Shown: positions 39,487 through 41,853 of the stretch, one piece after another
How positions within the stretch are numbered: the first letter of the stretch is position 1
Layout of the letters: each line of letters opens with the position of its first letter
NCBI RefSeq assembly: GCF_013141425.1
Contig: NZ_JABFRA010000100.1
Coordinates: 18,239-82,238, forward strand
DNA length: 64,000 nt
DNA from: Methylotenera sp.
Lineage (GTDB): Bacteria; Pseudomonadota; Gammaproteobacteria; Burkholderiales; Methylophilaceae
Direction of reading: 5' to 3'
Program-made: the position numbers and the translations under genes
The notes under the pieces: generated by a model
What the model was told of the DNA's origin: nothing
Database searches by the model: none
Seen by the model: only the letters and a program-made list of their open reading frames with translations

Positions 39487-40536
39487 TTATACAACCACAG
39501 TAGGCGCTTCGCCAGACTGCTGAGCGCGTATATTACCAATATGAAACACCGTTTCACCTGCATCGCGTAATAGGTCGATGGCTACCGCGGCATGCTCTTC
39601 TGCCACAATCACCGCCATACCGATGCCGCAGTTAAAAGTTTTATACATCTCGGCATCCGCCACATTACCCTGTGCTTGCAACCAGTTGAATAATGGCGGC
39701 ATGTCCCAACTACCTTTTTGAATTTCTGCAGTTAAGCCTTCTGGTAGCACCCGTGGGATATTCTCGGTAATGCCACCGCCAGTAATATGTGCCATGCCCT
39801 TAACAGGCAAGGTAGCAATCAACAGCAAAAGCGGCTTAACGTAGATACGCGTGGGTGCCATCACCACATCTTTGAATTTTCTGCCGTGGAAATCAGACTC
39901 AAAATCGATGCCTGATTTTTCAATAAGCTTACGAATCAGCGAATAGCCATTTGAGTGTGCTCCACTTGAAGCTAAACCCAGCACCACATCACCCGCGGCA
40001 ATGGTAGTGCCATTAATGATATTTTGTTTATCCACACAACCCACGGCAAAGCCTGCTAAATCATATTCGCCAGCAGGATACATGCCTGGCATCTCAGCTG
40101 TTTCACCGCCCACCAAAGCACAGCCCGACTGCTCGCAACCTTCGGCAATGCCTCTAATGACTTGCGCCGCCGTACCCACTTCTAACTTGCCACAGGCAAA
40201 ATAATCTAAAAAGAACAGCGGCTCGGCGCCCTGCACTAGAATATCATTGACACTCATGGCGACTAAATCGATTCCCACGGTATCGTGTTTGTTCAACTCA
40301 AAAGCCAGCTTAAGTTTAGTGCCAACGCCGTCGGTACCGGAAACCAGCACGGGATTTTTAAATTTTTTTGGCATTTCAAACAACGATCCAAATCCGCCAA
40401 TGCCACCCAACACTTCAGGACGCATGGTGCGCTTCGCAAATGGCTTAATTTGTTCTACCAGCGCATCGCCAGCTTCGATATCGACGCCCGCATCGCGGTA
40501 GCTAATTGAGGTTGTGTCAGTAGAAGATGTAGTCAA
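39487..40536 (-). CDS. purM: Phosphoribosylformylglycinamidine cyclo-ligase
   Basis: [50 protein letters not shown]. Confidence 0.96.
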
Positions 40537-40600
40537 AACGGCTCTCGCTTAATGTATAAATTGAATAATTACTTATTTTCTCGTTATGGGTGCTTCTATA

Positions 40601-40715
40601 AATTCAATTTTCTAAATTAGACAAGGCGCAAACAAAAAATTATGACGCTGTATATATTTGATATATAAGGAGTTATTTTTTGTGAGCAACACCGTATAAT
40701 GACGAAAATTGAATT
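40601..40715. mobile_element. MITE-like imperfect palindromic element with 12-bp terminal inverted repeats
   Basis: AATTCAATTTTC (40601-40612) ... GAAAATTGAATT (40704-40715); internal arms CAAAAAAT / ATTTTTTG and ATATATTTGATATATA near the centre also pair. Confidence 0.65.
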
Positions 40716-40758
40716 AATAGGAACGCCTTCTAAACGTTTAAGTATAATTTTAACCCAT

Positions 40759-41853
40759 ATGACGACTGAACCCAAAAAAACAGCAACAAAAAATGTATTT
40801 ATCGACAATCGCTGGCTGATTATTGCGGTGATTTTCGTGATTATTATTTATTTGCTGCTGCCTGTACTTACGCCTTTTTTAATCGCCGCAATTCTCGCTT
40901 ATATCTGCGACCCCTTGGTCGACCGCTTATGTTTGCTTGGCATTGGCAGGTTAAGGCTTGGCCGCACCCTCGCCACGTTGGTTGTAATGACTGGAATTTT
41001 TGGCATCATCACGCTGCTATTTTTAATTTTAGTACCGCTGCTACAAAAAGAGTCACTGCTCATCGCAGAACGATTGCCTAGCATCATCAGCAATATTCGC
41101 AACATTGTGGAGCCTTGGCTACAAAGCCATTTTGGAATTAGTTTTGCGATTGACGGCGCGCAAATTCAAGAAATCATCAGTAAAAACTGGAAAACCGCGG
41201 GCGGTATATTAGGTGATCTACTCAAAATTGCCGGCAATAATGGTTTGGCGCTTATCGGCTTGCTAACCAATATTTTGCTGTTACCCGTGGTGTTATTTTA
41301 TCTACTGCGCGATTGGGATGGCTTTATTGCTAGCATCGCCCAACTGATTCCGCTTGATTGGCAAGGAAAGACTACTTCTATCGCCACTGAAATTGATCAA
41401 GTCTTGTCTGAGTTTTTACGCGGCCAGCTTGCGGTAATGGCAGTAATGAGCGTTTTTTATGTTGCTGGCTTATGGTTTGTTGGCCTAGACATGGCCTTAG
41501 CCATTGGTATCATTGCTGGCTTGCTGGGCTTTGTACCCTATTTAGGCCCAACCTTGGGCTTGGGTTTAGCGCTGTTAGTTGCGGTTCTGCAATTCACAAG
41601 TTTGGCACAAGTGATTCCGGTATTAATGGTGTTTGGGCTTGGCCAGTTAATTGAAAGCATGATTGTCACGCCCAAATTAGTGGGCGACCGCATTGGCTTA
41701 CATCCAGTAGTGGTGATTTTTGCCCTGATTGCTGGTGGACAACTTTTTGGCTTTACTGGTGTGTTGCTAGCCTTGCCAATCACGGCAGCGCTAGCGGTGG
41801 GTTTACGCCACACCCGAGATAACTATTTAAATAGCGACACTTATCTAAATTAA
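40759..41853 (+). CDS. AI-2E family transporter (PerM-like)
   Basis: 8-TM protein, LTPFLIAAILAYICDPLVDRL, GLLGFVPYLGPTLGLGLALLVA, LIESMIVTPKLVGDRIGLHPVVVIFALIAGGQLFG. Start moved to ATG 40759 because the ORF-track start (40699) lies inside the palindromic element. Confidence 0.88.
   Translation: MTTEPKKTATKNVFIDNRWLIIAVIFVIIIYLLLPVLTPFLIAAILAYICDPLVDRLCLLGIGRLRLGRTLATLVVMTGIFGIITLLFLILVPLLQKESLLIAERLPSIISNIRNIVEPWLQSHFGISFAIDGAQIQEIISKNWKTAGGILGDLLKIAGNNGLALIGLLTNILLLPVVLFYLLRDWDGFIASIAQLIPLDWQGKTTSIATEIDQVLSEFLRGQLAVMAVMSVFYVAGLWFVGLDMALAIGIIAGLLGFVPYLGPTLGLGLALLVAVLQFTSLAQVIPVLMVFGLGQLIESMIVTPKLVGDRIGLHPVVVIFALIAGGQLFGFTGVLLALPITAALAVGLRHTRDNYLNSDTYLN

Follow-up and report, generated by a model that had tools for sequence, protein, structure and literature searches.

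Repeats of the MITE type (miniature inverted-repeat transposable elements) whose transcripts form stable hairpins are well established, examples being the Correia, ERIC, RUP/BOX/SPRITE and QMITE families (PMC2229807, PMC10969869, PMC3049150). Correia elements, also called NEMIS, are transcribed into a long stem-loop (PMC2229807), and in pneumococcus the terminal inverted repeats (TIRs) of BOX and RUP pair with each other within the structure (PMC3049150). Here we describe a further repeat, encountered as a palindrome between the divergent genes purM and perM of a Methylotenera species. The window analysed was a stretch of 64,000 nucleotides of contig NZ_JABFRA010000100.1 (positions 18,239 to 82,238), and coordinates below refer to this window unless a locus is named.

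The palindrome between purM and perM

The first-pass annotation described a 115-bp palindrome at 40601–40715 with perfect 12-bp arms. The arms are indeed present as claimed (AATTCAATTTTC at 40601–40612 and GAAAATTGAATT at 40704–40715) and the palindrome is real, but these 115 bp proved to be the interior of a longer, 140-bp element located at 40588–40727. A direct inverted-repeat search extended the repeat outward to arms of 34 nt at 40589–40622 and 40694–40727, which are 76% complementary, and alignment with other copies placed the ends of the element at 40588 (GGGTGCTTCTATAAATTC) and 40727 (...AATAGGAACGCC). In the orientation of the family model the copy is on the + strand, with positions 1–141 of model R1 (family length 141 bp) matching G000:C30:58826-58966 at an E value of 6e-32 (alignment A2). 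The inverted-repeat search and the copy alignment together delimited a left TIR on the + strand at 40588–40612 (GGGTGCTTCTATAAATTCAATTTTC) and a right TIR on the − strand at 40704–40727 (reverse complement GGCGTTCCTATTAATTCAATTTTC), the outer end of which is degraded. Between them, the consensus pairs mapped onto this copy outline an imperfect hairpin core at 40613–40703 (+ strand). The element is flanked by TTAT (40584–40587), which adjoins the aligned left end, and by TTCT (40728–40731). This is an imperfect target duplication in which three of four bases match, 4 bp being the family rule.

Folding of both strands gave a stability far above that of shuffled sequences (z −5.0 on the + strand and −5.6 on the − strand), and none of 200 shuffles matched the native fold on the + strand. 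In this particular copy the fold energies of the strands differ little (−38.5 on + versus −35.4 on −). Over the whole element, it retains 38 Watson-Crick and 4 G-U pairs of the 45 consensus pairs. Of the two internal loops of tandem G.A type that are conserved in the family, this copy has one intact and one with a G43 to A change. No ORF of at least 60 aa is present inside 40588–40727, and a length of 140–141 bp is too short for a transposase. We regard the palindrome, with high confidence, as an old MITE copy that has decayed but retains the ability to fold. This copy is probably immobile now, since a search of its own genome returned no match to the type of transposase described below and since its right end is degraded.

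As had been proposed, the element occupies most of the divergent gap between purM (39487–40536, − strand, with a TTG start at 40536) and the gene for a perM-type permease (40759–41853, + strand). The gap measures 225 bp with the element, as compared to about 86–110 bp in close relatives without it. The idea that the element supplies the ATG of perM did not hold. The ATG at 40699 is merely the start of a mechanically called ORF, and it is not the native start because relatives with and without the element share the ATG at 40759 (MTTEP...). In the empty-site relatives the same MTTEP start is preceded by the same upstream TTAAGTATAATTTTAAC, and both of these lie outside the element. A promoter scan of 40480–40820 detected no sigma-70-like site, and a terminator scan detected no terminator-like sequence in the purM-perM gap. 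Most likely, the element is a passenger whose arrival made the divergent gap longer, and an effect on purM or perM is possible.

Element-free purM-perM gaps were found, as a mobile element predicts, at loci L035, L037–L042 and L044. Empty and filled sites differ over about 18 bp around the insertion and are not base-exact, so that neither an exact insertion nor an exact excision can be read at perM. The element is present at this site in its own genome (G000), in G007 and in G013, and the close relatives of each of these have the empty site. On the purM/perM tree the filled sites are patchy, with G013 placed among empty-site genomes and both G000 and G007 placed with an empty-site genome. This distribution may result from loss, recombination or separate arrival. 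In another relative (L054) the purM-perM gap holds a different palindromic insert (TTAGTTGATTTTTTAATATGTATAGG...CTATGCATATTAAAAAATCGGCTAA).

Dispersed copies, target sites and an IS with matching ends

The palindrome had been read, by inference, as a non-autonomous mobile repeat; finding it only once in the genome, with its sequence conserved at purM/perM even in distant relatives, would have spoken against this. The sequence is neither single-copy nor conserved in this manner, and the searches revealed scattered copies with TIRs and 4-bp target duplications, as well as empty sites and an IS whose ends match. A BLAST search with the region detected the element at one further place in the own genome and in 18 of 41 relatives, the richest genome giving at least 21 candidates. 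With a covariance model built from 42 copies, six copies were recognisable in the own Methylotenera genome, of which two scored weakly (E about 0.01), and the model matched 52 of 120 family genomes and 33 of 250 genomes of the order. Named genomes matched in a pattern scan belong to Gallionella, Sideroxydans, Nitrosomonas, Nitrosovibrio, Methylotenera, Methylophilus and the Rhodocyclales; a few matches in unrelated phyla may represent chance or contamination. Judged by these matches, the element has spread among methylotrophs, iron oxidisers and ammonia oxidisers. A search of Rfam at E ≤ 1 gave nothing for the region in the window, at 10 other loci no Rfam match fell on the element, and no description of the repeat family in these taxa was found in the searched literature.

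Family copies are about 141 bp long, start with GGGYRCCTCTA and are intergenic; with mechanical ORFs serving as gene calls, 2 copies lay inside ORFs versus 176 with both neighbours called. The copies are close to genes, with median distances of 1–38 bp. Convergent gaps are their rarest gene context (13 of 176), and the excess of codirectional contexts is weak (72 versus 51, p 0.07). An older copy in the own genome, on contig C44 (L124, about 1500–1642), is located just after the end of a putative translation-factor gene, likely infB, and before a putative rbfA in the same direction, and its − strand is therefore probably transcribed.

An exact 4-bp target duplication flanks 60.1% of the 163 copies with full ends, compared to 5.7% with shuffled flanks, and duplications of 2, 3, 5 or 6 bp were not raised over shuffles in the same set. 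The target sequences are AT-rich (TTTA, TAAA, TTAA, ATAA and TTAT). Furthermore, a transposase with matching TIRs, the presence of which had been suggested as a check, was found in two 1.33-kb ISs (L103 and L104) from one genome of another family. Their transposase carries the Pfam domains DUF772 and DDE_Tnp_1 and is assigned by NCBIfam to the IS5 family. These ISs are like the MITE in their GGGCAYCTCTAAAAAT ends and AT-rich surroundings, but unlike it they are 1.33 kb long with a transposase, and their interior is without visible similarity to the MITE; only about 16 end bases are in common. Their flanks are TAAA/TTAT and TTTA/ATAA, with no matching 4-bp duplication of their own. In genome G003, IS ends with AT-rich left flanks were present, the IS itself being unassembled there. 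In both L103 and L104 the transposase is split over two overlapping frames, which may reflect a programmed frameshift or a shared mutation. We infer that this type of IS moves the MITE, in which case an IS5-family DDE transposase would act in trans on the GGGYRCCTCTA ends, and the element would have inserted into AT-rich 4-bp targets that are mostly intergenic.

Some copies are associated with other repeats. In several copies from different genomes, the left arm has given way to, or is broken up by, a different hairpin repeat (CACCAATCTAAG..GCTAAAGC..AAGATTGGTGCGATAA; L002 at 1430–1510, L092, L093, L028, L032 and L117). Short hairpin repeats of other kinds, for example CGACTTTTCAAGCACTTTAGTGCTTAGAAAATCG, are nested in the MITE copies of L113, L115, L114, L118–L120, L306 and L362. 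The nested hairpin GCGAGCATCCGCAAAGCGGATTGCCTGC and a near-identical one occur in two different bacterial families. At about 280–650 of L121, roughly 370 bp of other cargo lie between MITE-type ends (GGGCACTTCTATAAATTCA ... TGTATTTATAGAAGTGCCC), and the MITE core is absent.

The + strand of the family is held to a specific hairpin

Among the 42 copies, 26 of the 45 pairs have double changes that keep the pairing. In a set of 228 distinct copies, aligned by sequence only and with changes counted by parsimony, about 290 double changes kept the pairing. Single changes away from Watson-Crick pairs in these 228 copies produced G-U 278 times versus A-C 107 times; such event counts are approximate, as the tree behind them was built by FastTree from 141-bp sequences, and more trust can be placed in a sign test across pairs than in the pooled total. 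By this test, 33 pairs leaned to G-U versus 6 to A-C (p 1.4e-5). The bias was also seen when all palindrome-register positions were counted, with pairs not chosen for compatibility (317 versus 116), as well as in the TIRs alone (142 versus 54) and in the inner stem alone (127 versus 51). Unpaired control columns displayed no excess of G-U-making changes (ratio 0.75). In addition, the + strand folds better in 219 of the 228 copies, with means of −50.7 versus −39.1 kcal/mol, and is more stable in 36 of 39 divergent representatives with identities below 80%. Several mismatches are nearly invariant, including G43.A98/A44.G97 and G57.A84/A58.G83 (model positions); these would be tandem G.A pairs on the + strand and C.T mismatches on the − strand. 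Together these findings show that the family is constrained to a specific hairpin on its + strand. The covariation, in which one strand tolerates G-U, is as expected of a structured RNA and would also fit single-stranded DNA. The conserved hairpin suggests that this strand has some role in the life cycle of the element.

A constraint that served the neighbour genes would be expected to be stronger in copies whose + strand is transcribed together with them, and we compared copies according to the direction of these genes. On terminal branches, which include changes older than the sampled insertion, the ratio of G-U to A-C was 2.1 with both neighbours in the + direction and 2.55 with both in the − direction (p 0.62). 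Since the strand bias is equal whichever way the neighbours point, the constraint is probably on the element itself, as RNA or single-stranded DNA, rather than on local regulation. The gene-context comparison lent no support to the idea that local regulation causes the hairpin constraint. On this reading of a constraint on the element itself, the + strand would act during some step in the element's own spread, either as RNA, in the form of its own transcript, or in a single-stranded DNA form. We tentatively propose a Nitrosomonadales-type MITE family of which one strand, ends included, would be a structured RNA or a folded single-stranded DNA needed for its own spread. This would be a DDE-type MITE for which double-stranded ends are not enough and which also needs one strand to fold in a specific way, with tandem G.A motifs conserved in the fold.

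A conserved + strand hairpin that tolerates G-U, in intergenic copies at median distances of 1–38 bp from genes, is also consistent with a role acquired after insertion. The element would then be a transcript-level regulator of its neighbours, as a substrate of RNase III or RNase E in the way reported for Correia and ERIC elements (PMC2229807, PMC10969869), and host-level selection would keep the hairpin. However, the strand bias is equal for neighbours read along or against the + strand and the codirectional excess is weak, and we consider this explanation unlikely, though a serious candidate. The coupled arm changes could alternatively stem from the copying process, by template switching in the palindrome, instead of selection, and indeed they reach the outermost end bases (for example GGGAGCC/GGCTCCC and GGTCGCC/GGTGACC). 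Arm correction of this kind would, however, yield perfect pairs and provides no reason for G-U over A-C, and it leaves the conserved mismatched columns 43/98, 44/97, 57/84 and 58/83 unexplained; we judge it improbable. Lastly, a local regulatory hairpin of purM/perM that is conserved for that function would fit the divergent gene gap, the stable fold and the occupation of the same place in two relatives, but it is hardly credible and is refuted as the origin of the palindrome, because most relatives have the empty site with the conserved perM upstream motif intact, the same sequence is present at many unrelated loci, and the gap contains no promoter- or terminator-like match.

The analysis provides a searchable repeat family, with its model, ends and target rule, for a large group of environmental bacteria. 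If the strand-specific constraint is confirmed, this would pose a testable question for MITEs generally, namely what keeps their hairpins conserved and whether their spread involves a transcript or a single-stranded form.

Comparison with known repeat families

The Correia or NEMIS elements of Neisseria are like the present MITE in that they are about 107–155 bp long, have TIRs and a target duplication, and are intergenic (PMC2229807). By description they are nevertheless set apart, since their reported termini are 5'-TA, whereas the present family has GGG...CCC ends and a 4-bp duplication. The ERIC/IRU, RUP, BOX and SPRITE repeats are likewise short, dispersed imperfect palindromes with conserved folds, but their hosts, ends and target rules differ from those of this MITE. 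Specifically, RUP is tied to IS630, not to IS5, and the pneumococcal repeats are over-represented between convergent genes, while convergent gaps are the rarest context here (13 of 176). The QMITEs of Coxiella burnetii are comparable MITEs with a stable full-length hairpin transcript (PMC10969869), but they have 7–9-bp duplications, 23–29-bp TIRs and a host class other than that of this MITE. The present family is distinct from these repeats in its ends, target rule and hosts, and the strand-specific constraint is the part that would surprise a specialist.
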